A stretch of DNA of 64,000 bases from Tillus elongatus (Eukaryota > Arthropoda > Insecta > Coleoptera > Cleridae): the NCBI GenBank assembly GCA_964006375.1, contig OZ023262.1, forward strand, positions 93,073,654 to 93,137,653, written 5' to 3'. Positions within the stretch are counted from its first letter, which is position 1, and each line of letters opens with the position of its first letter. This document shows positions 8,582 to 63,118 of this stretch, one piece after another. Position numbers and translations under genes: made by a program. The notes under the pieces are model-generated. The model worked only from the letters and a program-made list of their open reading frames with translations. It had not been told where the DNA came from and searched no databases.

Positions 8582-10040
8582 GTTTTTTTTTTCAACAACA
8601 CACCACGCGGGCTTACAGCCTAAATACTATCGTACCGTGGGTGTCGACAAGGGGAAAAGAGGCAACTTGTTAATTCTGGACTTGAAGGTTAGGAGGTTCG
8701 GGGGAGAAGGAAAAACATGTGGCAGCAAAGAATTCCAAAACTTGGAAGTCCTAGGGACAAAAGTGCGGGCATAACAAGATGTTCTATGTCTGGTGACCTG
8801 GACAGTAAAAGGGTGCATTCGCTCTCTGCCCATGGTAGATCTGGTGGGTGCAGCAGGTGGAGCAACTATGGAAGAAAGCTCCTCTGAGCAGTGCCTGTGC
8901 ATATATGCATATACGTATAAAAGAGCGACAGGTCACCAACGGCACGTCGGTAGGCAAGGGATGGCTGTCTTTGGGTGCGGGTAGGGTCACTGATGAGACG
9001 TATAGCTCTCTTCTGAATGGAGTCCAGGATAGAGAGTGTAGAAGCGGCAGCAGCACCTCAGATGTGGGAGCAGTATTCGAATCTTGGCCTTATTTGTGAT
9101 GTATATAAGACATAGAGATTATCTGGTGAAAAGCATTCGCAAGCCCGGAAGAGGAAACCTAATTTCTTAGCAGCCGCTTCTGCAATTGATGTGACATGTT
9201 GGTACCGATTGAGATTCCGATCCACAGAAATGCCAACAAGTGAAAAGGATTAATTACTTTGAATAACTTGGTTGTTCATTGTGATGGATCTAGGGCTGAT
9301 GTATCTCTTATGAGAAAGAAAGCAAGACTGATATTTGGTGGGGTTGAATTGTACAAGATTTCTACTTCCCAATCTTATATTTTTTGGCGATCTACAGAGA
9401 GAGAACCCTTCATGAGTCAGAGCTCCCCATCTAATTGGGCTAAAGAGACAGGTTTAGAATATTGTATATTTGAGTGAGGGTGCTGTCGTCAGCGTAGCTG
9501 TGAACTGGGTTGGATGTGCTAGAGAGGAGGTCATTGATGTGGAAAAGAAACAAGTAGGCGCTAAAGCTGAACATTGAGGAGCTCCTGCATTAATTGGATA
9601 CAGTCTAGAGGAATGGCCATCCACAACAGCAGAAATGCTCCGGTTGGAGAGGAAATTTGCTGTCCGGGTACAGAGTTTTGGTGGTAGGCCATAGGCCGGA
9701 AGTTTATTAAGCAGCGCTACGTGCCAGACCTGGTCGAGTGCTGTGGATATGTCTAGGGCGACAATCTGGGATTCACCGTGTAGTTCCATAGACTTGTTCC
9801 AATAATGGGTGACAAAGGAAAGAAGGCCGGCAGTTGATTTGCGCTGACGGAATCCATACTGCCTGTCGTGGATTAGACTGTGCTTTTCAAGAAATTTTAG
9901 TAATTCGGTGTTTATATACTTTCCATCACTTTAGAGACGACTGAAAGGAGAGAAATAGGCACGTAGTTGCTAGGAAGCGCTTTGGATCCTTTCTTGGGGA
10001 CGGGTTGTACTCGAGCAGTTTTCCAGTTACTAGGGAATAT
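8582..10040 (-). mobile_element. 5'-truncated Jockey-like LINE, copy 1
   Basis: Read on the minus strand, it begins abruptly within the reverse transcriptase domain (about 10035) and ends near 8582 in a T-run on the plus strand, i.e. an A-rich 3' tail. The last 3' block (cacccacggtacgata) also ends copy 2 at 25915-27785, so both are the same family. 5' truncation is the usual outcome of target-primed reverse transcription. Confidence 0.85.
8640..10035 (-). pseudogene. Reverse transcriptase (LINE ORF2) fragment
   Basis: Conserved RT blocks are visible in order: NWKT followed by VPKKGSK, then IVALDISTALDQVWH (motif A, catalytic Asp kept, usual Lys changed to Thr), SNRSISAVVDGHSS, and a NAGAPQ block in place of NAGVPQG. 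Motif C (YADDST) is readable only in a different frame from motif A. The downstream part (HSLSWTPFRRELYV) is the C-terminal region of Jockey-like ORF2 proteins. Stops and frameshifts throughout; no endonuclease domain because of the 5' truncation. Confidence 0.85.
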
Positions 10041-11848: not shown

Positions 11849-12341
11849 TTTGCCTTTACTGAATGTGGTACATTTCGCTAACATTTCATTTTTTCTATGT
11901 CTATTGATTAATTCGTCGAATTTGATGTCCACAGGAAGGAAACTACCACCCTAAGTTACATTCCAAATGACTCACATAATACGTTTCTACAAAAACGGCC
12001 GGTTTAACTTTCTTAGTAAATCGATTAATAAAATGTCTCTTAAGTAAAATTATATATAGTATAGAATAAGAGTACACTAAAAAACGTGGCTAAATATAAC
12101 GAATATGCGCATTGTTTAGTGGAAAAATTAATTAATAGACACATTACAAAGAAAATGTTAGCGGAATGCACGACATTCAGGAAAGGTAGAATATAGAAAA
12201 CATTATACCTTTTGAACCGCATATCACAAGGGGTCCGAGAGAATTTTTGAGAAAACCGATTTGCAGCTAACTTTTTTAGCAAAAAATAATTTAAGAAATG
12301 TGTAAGGTAATACGTAAGATAAAGATAAAGCCACTGAAATG

Positions 12342-12610
12342 TCTGGTATCTAAGAGATAGGTTGCAAAGATTGTAATCTAAAATAAGTTGGGCAGACTAA
12401 GAGAACCGTTGAGACTAGATTTAGCGAACATATGGCACAGCTGAGATACGGTAGCTTAGTCATGCGTAGAACAGCATATTCGGGATAATCACCACCACAC
12501 TGCTAAAGAAAATCTGAAACTAATAAAAAATGTGAGTGCCAGCGAAGCTAGATCCAAACAAAAGCTCCTTAAACACAGCTCCTCCACTGGTTTGTAGTCA
12601 TCTGTTTGCG
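12342..12610 (+). pseudogene. PLE GIY-YIG endonuclease remnant
   Basis: One frame reads SGI-stop-EIGCKDCNLK-stop-VGQTKRTVETRF and then SEHMAQLRYG. This is the signature order of the Penelope GIY-YIG domain: GIY, a CxxC pair, YIGQT, and a basic stretch with ...TRF.EH. Both signature tyrosines (GIY and YVG) are replaced by TAA stops. After VMRR a frameshift leads to HIRDNHHHTAKENLKLIKN, the usual C-terminal part. Family role: nicking of target DNA to prime reverse transcription. Clearly dead, but the assignment is firm. Confidence 0.85.
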
Positions 12611-12801
12611 CTCTGTCTTTGATGCAGATAAACATTCCGAAACCTCTCAGGTAAAGTGATAAAGGAAGTTCAAAACCTCATCCGGTAACTAAAAGGCAAT
12701 ACACTGATAATTTGCCTGCGATTTAGTCTTCCGCACGGTATCTTTCTTTACCTAAGACTCAGTATAAAAGGTGATGTTAGTAGTGAGTTAGAAATTTTCA
12801 T

Positions 12802-12838
12802 CCTCTGATGTCCCTTTGTTAGTGAAACGATCGTCAGG
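12802..12838 (+). ncRNA. Degenerate hammerhead ribozyme motif (PLE)
   Basis: Reads CCT-CTGATGT ... GTGAAACGATCGTC-AGG. Stem III is the self-complementary ACGATCGT, the cleavable triplet GTC is present and stem I CCT/AGG pairs. The last base of the CUGANGA box is changed and stem II no longer pairs, so it is probably inactive. Same family as 42297-42337 and 42362-42402. Confidence 0.6.
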
Positions 12839-12920
12839 TCTTTTAAAATATGGTGATTTGGGTTCTTCAAGTGTACTTATCAGTGCTCATCATAGGTTCC
12901 AATTTTCACTTAGTGACATT

Positions 12921-23099: not shown

Positions 23100-24074
23100 A
23101 CAATACGATCGAAGCAATTAATAAGAAAAAATACGTGCCATATTCATAATTTGACAGGTACATTCCATTTGTAAATATTTTTTTTCTGAAAAACTTTTAT
23201 AACTTTAATCAAATTTGTAACACAATTTTTTTAAGGCACTGGCAGTACTTGCAGATTATATCTAAGACCAAGTTTTAATTTTTAAGGTCCATATAAAATA
23301 TAATTTTACATATGGGACTCTAAAACCGATCTTCAAGGCAAATTTAAATTTAAAGAATTAGTTTTAATAATATATCTTACTAATAGTGTACAATTCTTAT
23401 GAAAATTCTATACTATAACGCACCTACTGCATCCTGAAATTTGTTATTTATAGTATCCATTCGCATGCTAAAATTTATCGCTTGTAGATGCAAACTTTGT
23501 CCCAGTATTACGAAAGTCCAAGGCTGACAGTTTACACAATTATTGTTAGTTGATTGTATACAGATCTATCTATAAAATTGTGTGTAAACTAGAGCTATCG
23601 TACTACCTAGTCCTGTACCAAGGCGGCGCCTCTGTCGTATCTTTCAGAACGTTCTCCCGGCTGACATTTTCCGACAACTTCCATTGTTTATATTTTTATC
23701 TACGATTTATTTTAAGAGTATAGCAGTACAGATAACGTCACCTGTCTTTGTCCAACATTGTACATATTGCATACATGAAGTGATGTCAAGGCTTATTTTA
23801 TTATTAATTTCGAATAACTTTATTTTCCTCTGATCAAAAGACTTGAAAATTTGTACACAACCACGTCTGTCTATGCTCTTTTAAGTTGTAAATATTCGTT
23901 TCAATCACTTAGACAATTTAAGAGGTATTGCGTTTGAAAAATTATTTTTTAATTATTTATTAAGAAAAATTGGCCGTTAAGATTTGATGAACGAACTCAT
24001 CCAAGCCATTAGCAAAATAAGGGTAATTCCCAAATTTAGTCCAAATCAGAGAAGTATTTTTTGAGTTATTGGTT

Positions 24075-30699: not shown

Positions 30700-31627
<928 letters not shown>

Positions 31628-32080: not shown

Positions 32081-33117
32081 ATGGTGTATTCTGTAGAAGA
32101 AAGAGTTGAAATTTTTTTTTTCAAAAACCATGACTTTGCCAACCGTATCACAAATTTGTTTAATGAACGACATCCGGACAGACGTGTAAAAAAATACATT
32201 TTGGAGTTAGTTGCAAAGTTTCGACAAAGTGGTTCAGTAGTCAACAAAAAACGGGATCCTGAAGGTGAATTTCCGGTTAGAAATGAGACTACTGAGAACA
32301 AATTGCTGTAGACGTGAGCAGGAGAAAATTGGCCACTGTTTCAAACATCAAAAGAATAACTATTCAGCGAATACTGGTGCATCATAAATTTGACCCGTAT
32401 AAAATTCATCTTGTACAACAACTGAATGAAGATGATTTTGATCGGCGGCTGGACTTTTGTGAAGTTATGACTGCACGAATAGCTGATAACGGGAGCTTTC
32501 TGTTCAATATCTGTTTTTCAGACTAGTGTACGTTCCTATTAAATTCTACAGTCAATCGTCATAATTGCCGTTATTGGGCAGATGATAATCCAATAAATTG
32601 TCACAAAGTCCACACTCAAACTCCACAGAAATTAAATGCCTGGACTGGCATTTTTGGAGACCGTTTAATCAAACCAATTTTTCTTGATGGTAATTTTAGT
32701 GGCGAAACGTATTTAGAGTTACTAGAAGATATCGTTTACCCTTTACTAATTGACATTGTTGAAAATGATGATCACTTTCAAGAAAATCAATTAGTGTTTC
32801 AACAAGATGGAGCTCCTCCGCATTTTTCACAACGTGTTAGGGGTTTTTTAAACAAAGTGTTTCCAAAGCAATGGCTTGGGCGTAGAGGTTCTATTGAGTG
32901 GCCCCCTAGATCACCGGATTTAACTCCTTTAGACTTATTTCTATGCGGCCATTTAAATAGTAGAATTTACGCAACAGAACCGAAGTCTCTGGAAGAATTA
33001 CGACGACGCATTGTTGAAGAATGCCGTCTAATAACTCCACAAATGCCTCAGAATGCCAGAGCTGGTTTTGAACAAAATTTGTTCTTTTTGTATGGAAGCT
33101 GGTGGTCAAAAATTTGA
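32081..33117 (+). pseudogene. DD41D mariner transposase with two lesions
   Basis: Starts MVYSVEERVEIFFF. An N-terminal helix-turn-helix (LFNERHPDR ... KFRQSGSVVNKK) is followed by a frameshift near 32300, a second HTH (SNIKRITIQRILVHHKFDPY) and ICFSD, the first catalytic Asp. The next codon is a TAG stop (32524-32526) where Glu is usual. The same frame then stays open to 33117: RLIKPIFLDG, VFQQDGAPPHF (second Asp), WPPRSPDLTPLDLFLCGHLN (third Asp, 41 residues later). About 345 codons in all, normal for the family. Only one shift and one nonsense change separate it from an open frame. Function when intact: cut-and-paste transposition into TA. Confidence 0.9.
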
Positions 33118-35944: not shown

Positions 35945-36415
35945 CTTTACAATCAAGTCTAAAAAAATAGAGCAAATATGTGAATGAACATAACCTCAAC
36001 ATTCCTACACTTTTAATTTACGTAAAAACACAATGAAAATGCAAAGTTTTAATAAAAACTGTTTATTTTTATTGGTCAACAGATAGAAAATTATTTGAAG
36101 AGAGTAAACACTGGTCGGTCTTGGCAAATGCACAATATACATACAAAATAACCGGTCAAAAGGGAAATGAGAGCCGATGGACTGAACTGTCAATTGTCAA
36201 TTGATTTAGTAACTTTGAGGTCCCTAGTCTAGTGTTTTTTTTTGGTTACTTTTTGACTGTCAGCTCATAAAATCATATTCCGCTAAGAGAGGGACAGAAT
36301 CCGGTCACGTGGGACTCGGGAATTAATGAAAGCCCTCTATATAATACATTTAAATTTTAATCAACGTATTACATATTTGACTATAATATTATTAAATTCA
36401 CTTTTAAGTACGAGT
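35945..36415. other. Unassigned; upstream flank of the transposase fragment
   Basis: Probably old element sequence; no terminal repeat recognised. Confidence 0.3.
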
Positions 36416-36450
36416 TGGAGAACCCAATTCATCACAATACAGTTTTTAGA

Positions 36451-36491
36451 CCTGACGATATTTTTGCTAAGAGAGTTAGCGTCATCAGAGG
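36451..36491 (-). ncRNA. Degenerate hammerhead motif, left arm
   Basis: Minus strand: CCT-CTGATGA-C-GCTAACTCTCTTAGC-AAAA, then ATATCGTC-AGG. The first box and stem I are intact; the GAAA box has lost its G. Confidence 0.5.
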
Positions 36492-36529
36492 GATTAATAC
36501 ACTTTGGAGTATTTAGGTAGTTTACTAAT

Positions 36530-36572
36530 CCCTGTGATGACGCTAACTTTGTTAGCGAAACGATTGTCAGAT
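36530..36572 (+). ncRNA. Degenerate hammerhead motif, right arm
   Basis: Plus strand: CCT-GTGATGA-C-GCTAAC TTT GTTAGC-GAAA, then CGATTGTC. Stem II (6 bp) and GAAA are intact, but the first base of the CUGANGA box is G instead of C, which should abolish cleavage. Confidence 0.5.
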
Positions 36573-36912
36573 CTCAAAAATGTATTGTAATGAATTGGGT
36601 TCTTCAAACTGCACTTATCAGTGCTCATCACAGGTTTAACTCTTCACTCATTGAAGTTGTGTGTGTGTGTGTGTTTTGTTTCTTTATTTTCGGCCTATTT
36701 CCGCGACTATAGCCAATCACCGACGCCAGGGAGCACCTCACTATCCTGGAAATTTTGCCGAAACCCTATCTTTCTGTAAGCGGCGTAGGGATATTTAACG
36801 TGCCCAACATCGCATGGAGACGGGACCGACGGCTTTACGCCCCCTCTGAAGGGCGGAACGTGCAGACATTCAACTTGCTCAAATATAATTCCAGAACCTC
36901 GGTTGATGTTAA

Positions 36913-39764: not shown

Positions 39765-40135
39765 GTATGGTGTATATGTTTAAGTCTTCTAAACTAGACT
39801 TATAAGTAAGGAAAAAAGACATGGGATCACACACTTTATTTGAGACATACTAAACTGAACCAAGGTAAAAATAAAAAATTTAGTTACGCCAATGGGACTC
39901 CCTGAACCAACTAGTAGAATTGATTTTATGAGTAAACGATACTTAGTGAGTGGTGGACATGCCGCCACCTAGTTGCGGAACCAAGTAGTATATTGTCACG
40001 CCAGCTCTAAATAACACAAAGTGTTAAAAAATAGAGACTGTATACAACTAACTTACAATTTAAAAAAATGTCAGCCCTGGCCCATTTCGACTCCAATATA
40101 GGGACAAAGTATGTAAGGCTAGATGCATTCTCGCA

Positions 40136-40198
40136 ACAATTAGAACTGTAGACCGGTTTCGCTCTCATTCGAGCTCTTCAGTACGGCATACTAATTGT
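40136..40198 (-). ncRNA. Type I hammerhead ribozyme, array unit 1
   Basis: Minus strand order: outer stem I ACAATTAG, loop, GTA, box CTGAAGA, stem II GCTC-GAATGA-GAGC, box GAAA, stem III ACCGGT, C, then TAC, loop, CTAATTGT. Stem I pairs GTA/TAC and ACAATTAG/CTAATTGT (8 of 8). The triplet GTC precedes the expected cut, between plus-strand positions 40151 and 40150. All core bases fit the CUGANGA/GAAA/NUH consensus. Stem III is only two to three pairs and self-complementary, as in dimer-active PLE and retrozyme hammerheads. Confidence 0.85.
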
Positions 40199-40444
40199 AG
40201 CAAAAATGCACCTATAAAGTAATACGGCTATAGTAGCCAGCCTTTTAACACTAAGTGAGTGGTGGACATGCCGGCACCTAGTTGCGGAACCAAGTAGTAT
40301 GTTGTCACGCCAGCTCCAAATAACACAAAGTGTTAAAAAATAGAGACTGTATACAACTAACTAACAATTTAGAAAATTGTCAGCCCTGGCCCATTTCTAC
40401 CCCAATATAGGGACAAAGTATGTAAGGCTAGATGCATTTTCGCA

Positions 40445-40507
40445 ACAATTAAAACCGTAGACCTGTTTCGCTCTCATTAGAGCTCTTCAGTACGGAATAC
40501 TAATTGT
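40445..40507 (-). ncRNA. Type I hammerhead ribozyme, array unit 2
   Basis: Exactly 309 bp from unit 1: CCGTA - CTGAAGA - GCTC-TAATGA-GAGC - GAAA - CAGGTC - TACGG. Inner stem I is a full five pairs here (CCGTA/TACGG). Stem III is changed to ACAGGT, keeping the two closing pairs. The core is intact. Confidence 0.85.
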
Positions 40508-40759
40508 AGCAACAATGCACCTGTAAAGTAATATGACTATAGTAGCCAGCCTTTCAACACTAAGTGAGTGGTGAACATGCCACCACCTAGTTGCGGAACC
40601 AAGTATACAGTCTCTATTTTTTTAACACTTTGTGTTATTTGGAGCTGGCGTGACAACATACTACTTGGTTCCGCAACTAGGTGGCGGCATGTCCACCACT
40701 CACTTGGCGTTGAGAGGCTGCGCACTATAGCCGTATTACTTTATAGGTGCATTTTTGCT

Positions 40760-40822
40760 ACAATTAGTATGCCGTACTGAAGAGCTCTCATGAGAGCGAA
40801 GCCGGTCTACGGTTCCAATTGT
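40760..40822 (+). ncRNA. Hammerhead motif, inverted unit (core changed)
   Basis: Plus strand: CCGTA - CTGAAGA - GCTCTC-AT-GAGAGC - GAAG - CCGGTC - TACGG. Stem I (5 bp) and stem II (6 bp) are strong, but the GAAA box reads GAAG, so activity is doubtful. Confidence 0.75.
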
Positions 40823-40856
40823 TGTGAGAAAGCTTCTAGCCTTAGAGTAAACGATA

Positions 40857-42113: not shown

Positions 42114-42296
42114 AGGCCAAGATGGTACCCAATAGAGTAAAACTCCCTAGAGAGTTTCTCAAACACCTCCGCCTAATATAAAGCTTCCAGGATTTGTTAG
42201 TCAAACTGGGAAAAACGCGAAGGATATTTTAGAGGGTTGGCAGGTAATAAGTACACTTGGAGAACACCCAAATCACCACAACACATATTTCAGAGA

Positions 42297-42337
42297 CCTT
42301 ACGATCGTTTCGTTGACCAAGTCAACATCTTCAGAGG
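42297..42337 (-). ncRNA. Hammerhead ribozyme, left arm of the PLE palindrome
   Basis: Exact mirror of 42362-42402, so it has the same intact core on the minus strand. Confidence 0.75.
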
Positions 42338-42361
42338 AAGAAAAATTCTAGAATTTTTCTT

Positions 42362-42402
42362 CCTCTGAAGATGTTGACTTGGTCAACGAAACGATCGTAA
42401 GG
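42362..42402 (+). ncRNA. Hammerhead ribozyme, right arm of the PLE palindrome
   Basis: CCT - CTGAAGA - T - GTTGAC-TTG-GTCAAC - GAAA - CGATCGTA - AGG. Both core boxes are intact and stem II has six perfect pairs. There is one extra base between the first box and stem II, as in many PLE hammerheads. Stem III ACGATCGT is self-complementary and the triplet is GTA, with stem I CCT/AGG. Expected cut after 42399. Confidence 0.75.
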
Positions 42403-44117
42403 TCTCTGAAATATGTGTTGTGGTGATTTGGGTGTTCTCCAAGTGTACTTATTAGTGCTCATCACAGGTTCCAGTTTTCACATAGTGGCAGGTATTTTTT
42501 GATATCAAAATTTTGACTCTGCTTGTCTAAAAAACTAACCTGCATATAGATATCATAAAAGAAAAAAATTACCGCGAAAGGTGCAGAGAAACTGACCAAA
42601 CAGAAATGAAGGCATTCGTAGGTCTTTTGTATCTGGCAGGAGTTTTTCTGGTCATCAAACTCTTGAAGATTTTTGGTCAACTGGTGGTCTTGTAAAAGAC
42701 ATACTCAAAATGATAATGTCGGAAAAGTGATTTGGATTTCTTATCAGATGTATCCGATTTAAGGACAGAGCGACAAGGAAAGTGACAGATAAATTAGCTC
42801 CAGTGAGAGAAATTTTTAGTTGTTTTCTGGAAAATTGCAAATCACACTACCATCTTAGACAGATATCACTATCGACGAAATGCTTCCGCCTGTCCGGGGG
42901 GTGCTGTGGATTTAGACAGTACATCCCGTCAAAACTCAGTAAACATGGTATATTTTTTTTTTGTCTAAGCGGTGCAAAATTGTTTAACACGTACAATATG
43001 GAGATTTACTGCGATCAGCAGCCAGAAGGACCATATACGAAAAATAATTAAGCTGAAAATATTGTACTAAGGTTGTCCGAGCCCAGTGGTAGAAATATAA
43101 CTGCCAATAATTGGTACACAAGTTTCAACCTTCTCAGGAAGCTGGAGGAAAAAAATATCCTGTCGGAACTGTGAGAAAAAAACCGACGAGAGATACCCTC
43201 TCCTTTCGTTGTTTCCAAAACGAGAAACCAATACGACACTCTCTTTGGGTAAACAAAACGAGAAACATTGGTTTTATATGTACCAAAAAAAAAACAAGAC
43301 TGCTTTATTGATGTCGTTTCGAGACAGCTAGTTCTGCGGTGTCGACTGAAAAAGATAAGAAACCAGAATTTATCGACTTTTAAAACAAGAGTAAGACGAG
43401 TGTAGCTATCGTGGATAAATTTTGCGCTACATAAAGTACAGCACGATCCACAAAAAGATGGCCAATGCTTATTTTTTACCATACGCTACATGTAGTCGAA
43501 ATCAACTCGCGTATTTATTTTTTTCGGGAAATGAAATGGAATATATTCCTAGACGGGTGTGCTTGAAAACGCTAGCTTTGATATTAGCAACACGTCAGTT
43601 TCAAAGAAGGTCAATTGTGATAACTTTGCCGTATGAACTGCAAGGCCTCCTCAAAAAATATAAACCGGACCAACCTGCTAAAGAAGTTTAACCAGGACCA
43701 AGTGAAACAAAGCGAAAAATTTGCAGCCATTGCTATAGTACCACACAAAAGAAGTGTAAGACTCAATATTCTTGCAAGAGGTGTAATACATTTTTACATT
43801 TTTGTGTTTGCGTCTACATACGAAAGGACTGTGCCGCTAATGTTTTCCAAAAGCTCCAGAAGAAGAAGAAAATAAAAGGAAGGTACCTAATGGAAAATTG
43901 GTTTGATAATTTTGTATTCACAAAAATGGAATATAATATCCCGTTTCTTACAAGAACCTTCTCCAAAATAGGTTAATTAAGCTTTATATCAATTAATATC
44001 AAAAGATTATATCATAAATTCTTAGAAAACAACGACAAACAATATGATTATTAGCCAGGTGTCTGCAGGACCCACGCGCCGAAGCGCGTTACGTTAAGTG
44101 ACGCGCTTAACCAAGGG

Positions 44118-48156: not shown

Positions 48157-48626
48157 TTGGTTGCAGACATTATCGTTATATACATCCATATCCAAATATC
48201 CATATATACATCAGTCGCCGGCGATGTGTATTTTTCGGCGCTCTTGAGGAAATGCGATACTTCACTGCGAAATGATCTCGAGTATCATCGTCGAAAACGA
48301 CCTAATAAGCAATCTGGTGTGCGCTCTCAAATTCCACACTTGCAGTTTGCAGTGGAATTTTGGCAGAGCGTGTCTGTCTCTAGCATATGTTTAGTAATTT
48401 TCGTGTAGTGCTGCGCGGCGGATTGATTTTAATTAGATTATTTCGTTGTTGTTTACATGTTCTAACAAAACAATTATTATTATTATGATGGCTACTACTT
48501 CGAGATGCTTAATAAGTAGACAAAATAATTGTGTTACCGTGATTAATTCAGTGGATAATATTTTAAATTTAAAGGTTAACTTTTTAAGGGACTATTTAAC
48601 TACTATAACCTAAAGCATAAGGCAAC

Positions 48627-49493
48627 ATGGCCGTGACAAATGTGCTTGTTAACGAGCTGAACAAATTTAAAAAAGAAGTATTGATAGACATTATATTGAA
48701 AAATAGTGTTCCAGACAATATTGTAACTAGTCCAGAACTTCGCAGTTTTGTAAGTTCTAAGAAATATGACTGTAACGGGGATGTTTTTAGTGATTCTATG
48801 GCTGAAGTGATTCCTAACCTGGAAAACAGTGTGAATGTAAACAATCTAAAATGTGAACTCAAAGTTAATAGAAAGGAAATAGAATGCCTTCGCATATTAA
48901 ATAGTAATTTGGAGAAATCAATAAATGATAAAAATCTTATCATTGAACTATTAACCGCCGATAAAAAGAACTTCTTGCAAAGTGAAGGTGGCAGCGTTGC
49001 CACGTTGCCGAAAATTTCCAATGAAGGTATGACAAAGCATGTGAAATATAGGGATCCCAAAATGTCAAATGAATACGATGGGAGAGTATCACAAACGCTT
49101 GAAAAATTAAATGACGATCACATAATGCATAAAGTAGAGAAAACCTATTATATTAAACAGAAGAAAAATATGGTTATAGGAACTGGTTCGACGCAGAATA
49201 ATACAGCTACTTTTCAAGCTGTCGCTAAAAAAGCTGTCATTCATTTGGAAAGAGTGGGGTTGAACACAAAAAAGGAAACTATTTTGAACCATCTTCAGAA
49301 AACTTTCAAGCGAAGTGATTTCACTGTGGAAGAATGTCCGGTGAGAGAGGGCGCAAAAAGTATATCTTTCAAGGTAGAAGCAGACTTTGCGCTGTTAAGT
49401 GAAATTTATGATGCACAAAATTGGCCCACTGGGGTAACAGTATCCAGATATAGGTTTTTTCGAGGAAGAGATAATGCAAAATTCGATGCATAA
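48627..49493 (+). CDS. LINE ORF1 protein, 288 aa, intact
   Basis: An open frame starting MAVTNVLVNELNKFKKEVLI with a clean ATG. Residues about 70-125 are rich in Glu/Lys/Leu with heptad spacing (LRILNSNLEKSINDKNLIIE), consistent with a coiled coil. The last about 90 residues (AVIHLERVGLNTKKETILNH ... ISFKVEADFALLSEIYDAQN, WPTGVTVSRYRFFRG) match the RRM-like C-terminal domain common in insect LINE ORF1 proteins. Family role: RNA binding and ribonucleoprotein assembly. The stop overlaps the ORF2 start by 20 bp in a different frame. It is the only complete reading frame of a mobile element here, yet its ORF2 partner is dead. Confidence 0.85.
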   Translation: MAVTNVLVNELNKFKKEVLIDIILKNSVPDNIVTSPELRSFVSSKKYDCNGDVFSDSMAEVIPNLENSVNVNNLKCELKVNRKEIECLRILNSNLEKSINDKNLIIELLTADKKNFLQSEGGSVATLPKISNEGMTKHVKYRDPKMSNEYDGRVSQTLEKLNDDHIMHKVEKTYYIKQKKNMVIGTGSTQNNTATFQAVAKKAVIHLERVGLNTKKETILNHLQKTFKRSDFTVEECPVREGAKSISFKVEADFALLSEIYDAQNWPTGVTVSRYRFFRGRDNAKFDA

Positions 49494-52239
49494 AAATTCT
49501 CAAAAAAGTTGTTTTTCTTTGATTAACCTGAACTTACACGGACTGCCTAGGAAAATAGATTGCCTAAAAAATTGTTTAAAAGTGGAAGACTGCTGTATAG
49601 CTTGCTTTATAGAACATGGGCTGACTAATGACAACGTAAACAAAATCATAATACAAGGCTACAGAATAGCAAATTGCTTTACGAGACAATCAACTTCTCG
49701 TGGTGGTGCTATGATATTGGTAAGAGAAGGAGTGGAATATGAATCAATTGATCCGATAACTAACCTGTCTGTTGAGGGTTGTATAGAGATACCTGCAGTT
49801 AGACTTCCAAGTCTAGACATGACCGTTCTATCAGTTTATCGCCCCCCGGGAGCTGACATGCATGTTTTTATGGAGAAAGCTGACATTGCACTTGGTACTT
49901 TAATAAATAGTGGGGTTAATAATCTTTTCGTCGCTGAAGACTTTAATGTGAATATTTTGGAGTCAACAATGGAGAGTACCAAGCTGCATCATCTGTTTGT
50001 GTCCTATGGACTTTATAATCTATTTGCAGAAGCATCTAGAATAACAAAGACATCTGCAACTTGTATAGACAATATTTATTCAAACATAAACCTAAACAAC
50101 TGTCTAGCGAAAACTGTGAATTTACACCTGTCGGACCATCTTGCGCAAAAGCTCCTGATATAGAAGGACAACAAACAAGAGGATAAGTTTTATAATGTAA
50201 GGGATACAAATAACAGTGATAGTGTTCAGCTTTTCATACACCAGTTGCAAAACATTGACTGGAATTCACTTCTGGTACCAAATGCTGAAGAATCTTATGT
50301 TCGTTTCCACGAAGCTCTAATGGAAAGCTTTGAAAATTGCTTCCCTTTGAAAAGGAAGGGGGTTATCTCTGTTAAAGAACACATTTTCCGGAGTGAAATT
50401 ATCAGAAAACTTAAGAATCAGGTAGATGCTGCATATGCAATCTTTAGAGTAAAAAGAGATCATAATTCAAAAACTCTTTATGAAAGCCTAAAGAAACAAC
50501 TAAGGACACAGATTGACACTTCTATTAGAAACTATAACAGAGATAGAATTGCAAATGCTGATAATAAATCTAAAATCATCTAGAAGTTGATAAATTCGAA
50601 TATAAAAACCTCGAGGATTAACCAAGGAGCAAGTACACTAAATGCGGACTGTCTAAATTGCCATTTTTCCAGAATTGGTGAGGATAATTTGGTGCCAGTA
50701 GAAGACACGTCAAAAAAGTGCCATTCCTATATAAAACGTGTCAAACTGCGGAGCAATGGGTCATTGTTTCTCGAGGACACATCCCTACGTGAAATTATGC
50801 AGGTGGTGTTGATGATGAAAAATAAGTTAGCTTGTAACATCTTTGGATTAAACATAGTACTTTTAAAAAGGATAATCCACGTGATTGCAGACCCACTGAG
50901 CAAAATTGTCAATATGTGCTATGCTCAGGGTATATTTCCAAATCTATTAAAAATTGCAAAGATAATTCCTTTCCCAAAAAATGGCGACATGAACGATTGA
51001 AACAATTATAGGCCAATTTGTATTCTCCCTATAATCTCGAAAATCTTGAAAGCACTTATTAAAGAGAGATTAGCAAGCTATATTGATAGGCAGGAAATCC
51101 TAAACCATTCACAGCATGGATTCAGAAGAAATAGGTCAACAACGACGGCGATGACATATATAGTTGATTTTGTCTTGGAAGCACTTAATCACAAAGAAAA
51201 TGCCGAGCTATTGTGCTTTGACCTTAGTAAAGCCTTTAATATGGTAAACCACCAGATCCTTATCTCTAAGTTGGAATATTATGGAATGAGAGGCAGAATA
51301 GGGACACTTTTACAATCATATTTAAGGAACAGGGTGCAGTTGGTTAGCTGGCAAAATACCACATCAAATTTTAAACAGGTAGACTTGGGAGTACCACAGG
51401 GCTCTATACTGGGGCCAATGCTCTTCCTATTATATATTAACGATTTGCCCGAAAACATTAGGGCAGACAGAAGCTGCATCTTCGCAGAAGACACGACAGT
51501 AATTAATAAAGCAGTTCCAGACCTTATAAAACACAAAGGTGACCAATACATCCAGCAGGTGGAAGCATGGGTTAAGGCAAACAAGTTATTTCTTAATGCA
51601 GAAAAAACATCAAGACTTGTCATAACTACCAGGGACTATCTACAGAACTCAGGCGAAAATATTAACGTTTTAGGCTTTCATATTGATAGTTGCTGGAAAC
51701 CCCACATAGACCATATGTGTAAAAAATTATCTTCAGCCATCTACTCAATCCGTAGAATAAGATACATCATAGATGAAAGCGCCGCAACGGTTACTTACTA
51801 TGCTCACTTTCAAAGCATTGCAACCTATGGGATTTTGCTGTGGGGATCCTCGCCACATGCAGAACGTGTCTTTATACAACAGAAAAGAGCAATTAGGGCG
51901 ATTGCTAACGTTCCTGAGGACCACAGTTTTAGAGAACTATTCCAGAGGTATAAAATACTTACCCTACCAGCAAGTTATATAATTACTTGCCTTCTTTACA
52001 TTTATGACCATCAGGCAAGTTTTATCTCCCATGAACAGGTTCACAGTTACGAAACTAGAGGTAAAAGTCAGTTTGTGATTCCTCATCACAGGATAAGCCG
52101 CACGCAGAGGAGCCATGGGTATACTGGAGTTATGTTGTTTAATTCACTTCCAGTGGTGGTCAGTGAATTGCCTAGAAGACAGTTTGCATCTGTGATAAAA
52201 CGAAAATTAATAGAGAGACCTATATATTCAATTGAATAA
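49474..52239 (+). pseudogene. LINE ORF2: APE endonuclease and reverse transcriptase, three stops
   Basis: One continuous frame of 922 codons interrupted only by TAG 50161-50163, TAG 50581-50583 and TGA 50998-51000; no frameshift. Endonuclease (1-229): SLINLNLHGLP, GGAMILVREG, VYRPPGA, EDFNVNIL, TCIDNIYSN, LSDHLAQ, all in the expected order. Reverse transcriptase: NNYRPICILPIISK after the third stop, SQHGFRRNRSTTTAM, LLCFDLSKAFNMVNHQILIS (motif A), LGVPQGSILGPMLFLLYIND (motif B) and FAEDTTV where FADDT is usual, so a catalytic Asp is Glu. A C-terminal region follows to IERPIYSIE. Inactive, but decay is slight: a fairly young copy. Confidence 0.9.

Positions 52240-58642: not shown

Positions 58643-58697
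<55 letters not shown>
58643..58697. repeat. (TA)n microsatellite
   Basis: Left border of the 363-bp palindrome. Confidence 0.97.
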
Positions 58698-58700
<3 letters not shown>

Positions 58701-58765
58701 TTTGGAATATTGCACTACACTACACTGTAATTGTTTGCTGGAGGTTTGTGATTTTTTATTGGTTT

Positions 58766-58810
58766 GCGCGGACTGCAGTTTCGAACCGCCCCGGTTCATC
58801 ATCAGCACGC
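58766..58810 (-). ncRNA. Hammerhead ribozyme, left arm
   Basis: Minus strand: GCGTG - CTGATGA - T - GAACC-GGGGC-GGTTC - GAAA - CTGCAGTC - CGCGC. Stem I five pairs (one G-U), stem II five pairs, stem III ACTGCAGT self-complementary, triplet GTC. All core bases intact. Confidence 0.83.
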
Positions 58811-58947
58811 TACTGACTGTTACGCTCCTGTGCGATCTACGTCTGAGATTGTACGTGGCGCCTGGTGAGCTTCTATTGGTCGGTTTATTGTTAGCTGACG
58901 GCGCAGGCGCCACGTACAATCTCGTACAAGACGTAGACCACACAGAA

Positions 58948-58992
58948 GCGTGCTGATGATGAACCGGGACGGTTCGAAACTGCAGTCCGCGC
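58948..58992 (+). ncRNA. Hammerhead ribozyme, right arm
   Basis: Plus strand: same order as the left arm with a GGGAC loop. Core intact; expected cut after 58987. Confidence 0.83.
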
Positions 58993-59057
58993 AAACCAAT
59001 AAAAAATCACAAACCTCCAGCAAACAATTACAATGTAGTGTAGTGCAATATTCCAAA

Positions 59058-59060
<3 letters not shown>

Positions 59061-59129
<69 letters not shown>
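59061..59129. repeat. (TA)n microsatellite
   Basis: Right border of the 363-bp palindrome. Confidence 0.97.
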
Positions 59130-61305: not shown

Positions 61306-62323
61306 CTATAATAATTGTTCGAAATGTTGACCGTTAACTTCCAGACACTTTTGTATACGATGATGCACGGCGTTTGTTGTAGCAGCTCTTATTTCAGCGG
61401 GGTCCAAGTTTTCAATCTCTTGAATCACTCGACGTTCTAATTCTGCCCTGTTGTGGACTGGAGTTTTATAAACTCGATCTTTAAGAATACCCCAAAGATA
61501 AAAATCTAACGGGGTAAGGTCAGGGGACCTCGCAGGCCAGTTACACGGTCCCAAACGTCTGATCCAACGGTCATCGAAAAGCCGGTCCAACTCCATACTA
61601 ATTTCGGATGTACAATGTGCAGGAGCCCCGTCGAGTTGATACCAACAAGTTCTATATGTTTCAATTGACAGATTATCAAGGAAGCCTTCCACAATTGTTC
61701 TAATTATATCTAAATATTTTCTGGAATTCAATTTTTCGTCATATATGTAATATTTTATTTTGTCATCCAATAACATACAAAAAACATGTAAACTAAATTT
61801 GACTTGAAAACCAGCCTCTCTAGTAACGTGGGGGTTGTCTGTGGCCCAATAGTGACGATTTCGTGTGTTACAAATCCCCTCCCTAGAAAATTTTCTTTAA
61901 AAAATTGGGGTCCTCTTGCATACGCACAACTAACATTTCACACAACTCTATTCTCTGTAGATAATCCTGAGGCGTGAGAAATTGAACTCTTGTAAATTTA
62001 TAATTATGCATTTTATGATTTACTAGTATTCTTCGAATGGATGAATATGGCAATCCTAAATCCTGTTCAGCACAACGTATGGAATACTGGGGATTCGCAT
62101 GAAAATACGCTAGCACATTGATTTCATTTACCTCGTCAGATGTCACAGGTTTGGGTAGATTTCTTGCATCTCTTAACGACGCACCAGATTTTATAAAATT
62201 CCTATGAATTCGTAGAAACTTTCTGTTATTCATCTGCGGCAAATTCGGATATTTATCATTAAATCTTCTACAAGTTCTGCTGATAATCTTATTGCACTGT
62301 CCATGAATAATAAACAAATCCAT
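61306..62323 (-). pseudogene. DD41D mariner transposase lacking the first catalytic Asp
   Basis: Starts MDLFIIHGQCNKIISRTCRR; helix-turn-helix (RFNDKYPNLPQMNNRKF, LPKPVTSDEVNE), second HTH (LPYSSIRRILVNHKMHNYKF), then NFLKKIF and a stop. The next frame resumes GICNTRNRHYWATDNPHVTR, GFQVKFSLHVFCMLLDDKIK, CWYQLDGAPAHC (second Asp), WPARSPDLTPLDFYLWGILK (third Asp, 41 residues on) and ends HFEQLL. A deletion of roughly 20 bp at about 61883 removed the (F/L)FSDE segment with the first catalytic Asp and shifted the frame. No other lesion was seen, so it is a young copy killed by one event. Confidence 0.9.
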
Positions 62324-63118
62324 TAAAACTGTGTTTGTATAATTATTTTATGTCATGTTTGTGCTATAGCTATTCAAATTGAATGTAAATATCACTAACG
62401 TCAAATTTATTTAGATAAACAGCATGTCTGTTGTCATGTCAAATTGACAAAATAGAAATTTCATGGCCCACCCATTATGATATACAAAAAGACCAATAAT
62501 CTTGGATAGGTTAGAGAAAAGTGACCAAAAATCGAAAACGCCTTGAGATAGGTATAGGGAAATATTAACAAAAGTTACTCAAAAAGAGAAGACGATCCAA
62601 AAAATTTGAAAATATACAGGGCGTTCTATTTAAAAAAAATGACTTTCGTGCATTTCTCCGAGTCACTTATAGAAAGCGTTCTCTAACTCACCCTGTATGA
62701 TATTCTAAAGATTTGATTAATGGAGGAGATGCCCCTAGACCTTGCCTAACCGTAGCTAAAAAATTATCTTTAAATCGCTTCGTCGGTAGGAAAAAACACG
62801 ATTTAATGAAAGTCAAATTTTTGGTAATAAATTCAGAAAATAATTATTATCTCGAAAACGACTTGAGATAGGTATATAAAAATATCAACAAAAGTTACTC
62901 AAAAAAAGACGACAATTCAAAAAATGCAAAAATATATAGGGTGTTCTATTTAAAATTACGAAGATGTTGCCAGTTTTACGTATATGTGGCAACACTGCAT
63001 TTTCAAAAATATTTTAGGTCGAGAGATCATACGCCACTACATCCGTAACCAAAATTTCAGAGCAATCGGTTGATTCATTCTCCATATACTTTTAATACTC
63101 CATCCACCGTGGCTCACC

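Follow-up and report, generated by a model that had tools for sequence, protein, structure and literature searches.

Metazoan non-LTR retrozymes are described in PMC7229834 as non-coding tandem units of about 170–400 nt, with a type I hammerhead ribozyme and a GC content below 50%, that are bounded by duplications of more than 4 bp and occur in genomes that also hold Penelope-like elements (PLEs). PLEs are named there as strong candidates for the mover of animal retrozymes, and LINEs or PLEs are named in PMC11722881. Copies of Penelope are reported with adjacent inverted pLTRs, one of which bears a tail, and with duplications of 9–10 bp (PMC3846280). Purified PLE protein cleaves the two strands and extends each of them, and it starts internally, at two sites next to one another (PMC11167929). 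Plant LTR retrozymes have the name and the circular-RNA strategy in common with the family described below, but are characterized by type III hammerheads in LTRs, a primer-binding site, a polypurine tract and 4-bp duplications (as presented in PMC4918200, PMC11722881 and PMC7229834); the type I arrangement and 12-bp duplication of our array set it apart from them.

Here, we describe an array at positions 39930–40856 of a 64-kb stretch of DNA (hereafter the window; C1:93073654–93137653 of a 1.72-Gb genome in 30 contigs, whose transposons suggest an animal host), which is AT-rich and dense in TA repeats and transposon remnants. We conclude, with a probability of roughly 0.8, that the array arose as a single insertion of a metazoan (non-LTR) retrozyme that was copied in trans by PLE machinery from two internal starts, one per target strand. 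Established by sequence are the ribozyme core, the ends at two sites, the head-to-head structure, the duplications and a resident element that encodes a reverse transcriptase and an endonuclease and has a like end rule. The family is a new one of the known metazoan retrozymes, and what the genomic copies add to the known is a two-site, one-per-end rule common to the retrozyme and the resident PLE. No report of such a rule for retrozymes was found in the largely open-access literature surveyed.

The array is flanked by two exact copies of a 12-bp target-site duplication, GAGTAAACGATA, at 39930–39941 and 40845–40856. Its direct part (39942–40605, ribozyme sense on the minus strand) holds about 2.15 units of 309 bp: unit 1 (39941–40249) and unit 2 (40250–40558), both with minus ribozyme sense and 93.5% identical over 309 bp, and a stub of 47 bp (40559–40605), or 44 bp minus the 3-bp junction overlap. 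An inverted partial unit of 242 bp on the plus strand (40603–40844), 93% identical to the unit, joins the direct part head-to-head via a 3-nt overlap, GTA. Counting from u1 as the first base past the predicted cut, it runs from u106 to u309 and then from u1 to u37. The RNA-sense 3' end of the direct part, at 39942, is u209 (site B) and that of the inverted partial unit, at 40844, is u37 (site A). This is the layout that an initial annotation had proposed, and the coordinates and exact repeats confirm it.

The unit has a GC content of 41%. With a longest open stretch of 60 aa in the circular unit, the array has no open reading frame of its own for a reverse transcriptase and GIY-YIG endonuclease and does not qualify as a PLE proper. 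It does have the hallmarks of a metazoan retrozyme (PMC7229834): a type I hammerhead in each unit, as judged by sequence, tandem non-coding units of 309 bp within the known size range, a GC content below 50%, dispersed insertions with duplications of more than 4 bp (8–16 bp here) and PLEs in the same genome. Compared with the description in PMC7229834, whose main text does not use the word 'inverted', the array family differs in its two fixed internal ends, its inverted partial units and the rule of one end per site.

Type I hammerheads are predicted at 40136–40198 in unit 1 (minus strand; the span includes the inner 8 bp of the outer helix), at 40445–40507 in unit 2 (minus strand) and at 40760–40822 in the inverted piece (plus strand), with predicted cuts, in the motif GTC/TAC, between 40150 and 40151, between 40459 and 40460, and after 40807. 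All three copies contain CTGAAGA, a GCTC/GAGC stem II, a GAAA box (GAAG in the inverted one), GTC and a stem I, which in unit 1 has one C x A mismatch in its inner part; the six letters of stem III are ACCGGT, ACAGGT and GCCGGT across the copies. Past an internal loop, stem I is predicted to extend into a helix of about 22 pairs (u247–269 with u8–30); the 'second outer helix' of the initial annotation (ACAATTAG/CTAATTGT) is the inner part of this longer predicted helix. A strict type I descriptor found two sites in the 64-kb window, both in the array, and none in 100 dinucleotide shuffles. With a relaxed descriptor, eight window sites were found against a shuffle mean of 0.05, and three of these, including the one in unit 1, are in the array, so that the proposed core is matched in three copies out of three. 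An Rfam covariance search, suggested as a check, returned only Hammerhead_HH9 at the array, at 26.0, 20.7 and 19.2 bits, and copies from 10 further loci reached 24–30 bits; the matches are to a hammerhead model, but all fall below its gathering score of 52. On the whole window, the best Rfam matches were microRNA models on palindromes or TA repeats, all below the gathering score, and at the array, large matches to 'MIR447' and 'MIR5070' were rejected as the inverted repeat itself.

Cleavage at both sites of the direct part would release one 309-nt monomer from this locus, between the two predicted cuts (40151–40459, minus strand). The stem III is palindromic and very short, as in an axolotl repeat family that cuts efficiently only as a dimer (PMC7229834), and because of this likeness dimeric action of the present ribozyme is likely. 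The newt and axolotl hammerhead repeats, which we liken to the array by their description in PMC7229834, have a very weak palindromic stem III and a length of 330–350 bp, compared with 309 bp for the array unit.

A query of the genome with the unit yielded 3687 first-look candidates, of which the best 40 were scored, giving 130 matches. The set examined, 39 other stretches and the window, hence consists of best matches to unit 1 and is not random. We dissected 49 insertions or fragments in these 40 stretches and classified 47, the two dropped being truncated by the end of a stretch (L033 5560–6001 and L034 1–30). In this best-match sample of 40 stretches, two internal positions account for 62 of the 76 outer RNA-sense 3' ends, site A (u30–50) for 29 and site B (u204–218) for 33; the 76 include ends at interruptions, and one duplicated end, in L035, was entered twice. 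The other 14 comprise 4 at u6–29 and 10 elsewhere, the nearest to the cut being u6, and none of the 76 falls in u250–309. The 5' ends are scattered, with 7/79 in u30–50 and 3/79 in u204–218, and array lengths vary among insertions. Insertions with a single orientation end at site A or B in 16 of 18 cases. Two insertions (L015 and L043) have a possible minor third start at u242–243 (GTATTACTT), opposite a site-A end.

The two ends of head-to-head insertions are paired in a regular way. Among 29 such insertions, 17 have one site-A and one site-B end (AB), 1 has two site-B ends, 5 join site A and 5 join site B to another position, and 1 has neither site; of the 18 insertions in which both ends could be assigned to a site, 17 thus show AB pairing. 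Exact duplications of at least 8 bp flank 14 of the 29, all of them AB, with corrected ends at u34–42 and u206–213. These duplications are 8–16 bp long (median 12) and differ in sequence between insertions, and the same duplication search gave 0/147 at random boundaries. The lone insertion with two site-B ends (L025) becomes AB with a 15-bp duplication after bridging of a 270-bp interruption, a post hoc step that brings the head-to-head insertions with duplications to 15; it was the one convincing case in a search of the remaining insertions for hidden short inverted pieces or duplications. A possible duplication with mismatches, in L035, was left out of the counts. If the two ends were independent, the chance of AB pairing would be 3.6e-6 for 18/18 and approximately 7e-5 for 17/18 (hand arithmetic). 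The arms overlap by 1–7 nt in 18/29 junctions, abut in 1 and are separated by a gap of 1–27 nt in 10, and the mean overlap in the 19 gapless junctions is 2.8 nt compared with 0.69 for random joins. From the two-site ends and the head-to-head joins, copying seems to begin at two internal sites and to be able to traverse the ribozyme junction, two cDNAs then meeting head-to-head; as read from genomic copies only, reverse transcription would start internally, away from the RNA 3' end.

These ends could also be explained if the hammerhead were a relic and the arrays had spread as uncut RNA, the ribozyme taking no part in insertion. Pieces of more than one unit do cross the cut junction, no outer 3' end lies at the cut, and ribozyme mutants of a lizard PLE insert normally in vitro (PMC11167929). 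Among the genome copies, core positions show no excess of conservation over other unit positions (P 0.38), and covariation of the ribozyme helices was not detected: stem I pairing equals that of shuffled partners, and stem II pairing (572 compared with 566.6 for shuffled partners, maximum 570) gives no covariation support. The lack of covariation and of extra core conservation weighs against strong ribozyme claims; the copies are mutually close and seem to decay unselected after insertion. However, the core is retained in 95 of the 120 genome copies whose ribozyme zone is complete, a self-complementary stem III in 93, and core and stems together in 89. Units are also more similar within insertions than between them (4.8% compared with 6.6% divergence, lower within in 29/33 insertions), a closeness reached by 0/500 label permutations, and 13 rare variants occur in a single insertion each, compared with 2.06 expected. 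Lower divergence within insertions is expected if one template is copied repeatedly and fits repeated copying of one monomer circle, although a local multimer, or later conversion inside the array, would equally produce it. The array in the window has no such excess, with 8.75% divergence within and 7.75% to others. On balance, we regard a relic hammerhead as unlikely.

The machinery assumed for a retrozyme copied in trans is encoded in the same genome. In a search for GIY-YIG domains, the best 150 of 14221 candidates were scored and 150/150 exceeded the cut-off. One locus (L050) has matches to RVT_1 and GIY-YIG in a single open frame of 637 aa, for which a PDB sequence search gave no match. 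A reverse transcriptase and a GIY-YIG endonuclease in one frame are the hallmark of PLEs, and by this frame L050 is an autonomous PLE. L051 and L052, selected for close opposite GIY-YIG matches (a third pair, C1:213665263 and 213665864, was left out), are head-to-head copies of the L050-type PLE. In both, one arm ends in ...GTACTTA (site 1) and the other about 34 nt further at ...TTTTCACATAG (site 2, the tail), with flanking duplications of 12 bp (L051) and 9 bp (L052). A retrozyme array (L041) lies within about 6 kb of L051 on contig C6. For comparison, the window itself has a head-to-head mini-insertion of the PLE terminal region at 42247–42485, 1.4 kb from the array; its left arm ends at site 1, its right arm at site 2, and it is flanked by a 9-bp duplication, TGGCAGGTA. 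In three further PLE copies, at 36399–36647, in L017 and in L022, the ends are no more than a few letters away from sites 1 and 2. All six head-to-head PLE copies seen therefore combine an end at or near site 1 with an end at or near site 2, and four of the six have duplications of 9–12 bp. These ends agree with the published pLTR tail (PMC3846280) and two-site start with both strands cut and extended (PMC11167929). Older PLE remnants in the window are found at 11919–12536, 12787–12914 and 36399–36647.

The PLE ends carry a hammerhead variant of their own, in which one U is added between A9 and stem II, and stem III is a palindrome of 8 nt. In the PLE-end alignment, L050, L051 and L052 have this CTGAAGA-T-stem-GAAAC arrangement, and the mini-insertion has one variant per arm. 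The relaxed descriptor matches it in the PLE copy of the window; in L050, no hammerhead was found by the descriptor that bars an extra base before stem II, nor by Rfam. In the window, variant sites are at 42334, 42365, 58035, 58805 and 58953; they belong to the terminal region of the PLE and to a second repeat, a palindrome with TA tails. A palindromic repeat at 58643–59115, with TA-repeat tails at both outer ends, carries the variant.

The retrozyme resembles PLEs (as described in PMC3846280 and PMC11167929) in its head-to-head inverted end, duplications of 9–12 bp, two alternative 3' ends, internal start and partial tandems, and an inverted copy whose 3' ends differ between its two sides is what Penelope machinery would be expected to leave. 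Unlike PLEs, it has neither reverse transcriptase nor endonuclease, and the unit has no extended similarity to the PLE in L050; the one match obtained among PLE copies, a weak one (65%, E 0.004), is located in the L052 flank. By its sequence, the retrozyme is a non-autonomous rider and not a PLE proper. The initial annotation had suggested a retrozyme-like, non-coding retroelement inserted in one piece, or one derived from a PLE. The former is upheld by the 130 genome matches, the 47 insertions, the duplications and a PLE with the same end architecture; the latter, in the sense of carrying PLE sequence, is not, as the likeness is limited to a 10-nt end match. Among all 309 unit positions, the final 10 nt of PLE site 2 (TCACATAGTG) match best at u211, with 9/10 letters (TCACTTAGTG) and a shuffle fraction of 0.0004, the length of 10 having been chosen after the match was seen; over 14 letters, two further places in the unit match as well as site B does. 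At its site-2 end, the L017 copy of the PLE has TCACTTAGT. Site A and PLE site 1 have only CTTA in common (shuffle fraction 0.19, not significant). The start sites are 172 nt apart in the retrozyme and about 34 nt apart in the resident PLE, and the inner junctions are nearly symmetric in L051, L052 and the mini-insertion of the window, unlike those of the retrozymes. The likeness of retrozyme ends to resident Penelope ends suggests whose enzyme moves the retrozyme.

A LINE-type (L1-like) reverse transcriptase could instead have inserted the retrozyme by target-primed reverse transcription, the inverted piece being a 5' inversion by twin priming, which is described as yielding inverted, truncated L1 copies with duplications (PMC2837659). 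Frames with RVT_1 matches but no GIY-YIG match, which we took for LINEs, are present in the window at 51001–52236 (region 48621–52236) and 9457–9930. However, the retrozyme starts are internal at two fixed positions, the listed ends have no common tail, and L1-type twin priming would not be expected to place one end at each site, whereas the PLE obeys this rule too; we consider LINE-driven insertion improbable. Still less credible is the reading of the array as a plain satellite, or as a DNA element whose ends are fixed, spread by recombination and flanked by a duplication by chance: it would account for tandem units, and fixed outer sequences could pass for the termini of a DNA element, but it fits poorly with 47 classified insertions in 40 stretches, differing duplications at the same two ends, variable array lengths, scattered 5' ends and microhomology at head-to-head junctions.

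For the preferred reading, a retrozyme copied by a resident PLE, we infer self-cleavage, circular RNA and mobilization in trans as follows. RNA that spans units in tandem would be processed by the type I hammerhead, probably acting as a dimer through its palindromic stem III, into 309-nt monomers that could circularize. This RNA would be copied in trans by a resident PLE with its GIY-YIG endonuclease and reverse transcriptase: a staggered cut of the target would expose two 3' ends, of which one would prime at site A (about u37) and the other at site B (about u209). The cDNAs could extend through the ribozyme junction for the length of one unit or more, and would join head-to-head, often via microhomology. 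The outcome would be a direct array with an inverted partial unit, bounded by duplications of 8–16 bp.

The retrozyme end map, in common with that of the resident PLE, thus points to PLEs as the mover, offers a simple test for any retrozyme-bearing genome and suggests an integration rule for PLEs, one start site per target strand. A wider proposal, which we put forward tentatively and with slightly more doubt than confidence, is that Penelope-type integration uses two distinct starts on one structured RNA, one per target strand, and that retrozymes, as parasites, imitate both signals. In structure predictions for the circle, u32–36 pair with u216–220 at a mean pair probability of 0.34–0.39 in 30 natural units, with competing pairings. 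Sites A and B may hence lie opposite one another at the foot of the long stem of the hammerhead, where a reverse transcriptase dimer could hold both.

The window also contains two diverged relatives of a nearly whole unit (approximately u5–u272), found by alignment at 23455–23710 (plus) and 31340–31615 (minus), with scores of 114 and 118 compared with shuffle maxima of 62 and 64. They sit in a composite repeat of about 1 kb with two copies in the window; a decayed hammerhead was considered for them and rejected, given that the scores of the ribozyme zone are no better than shuffles. Frames at 32527–33114 and 61309–62347, which lack a Pfam match, look to us like mariner-type transposase. Approximately 20–35 letters before site B, the unit has a sequence (AACTAGGTGGCGGCA in unit 1) that may resemble the binding motif of the insulator protein CTCF.
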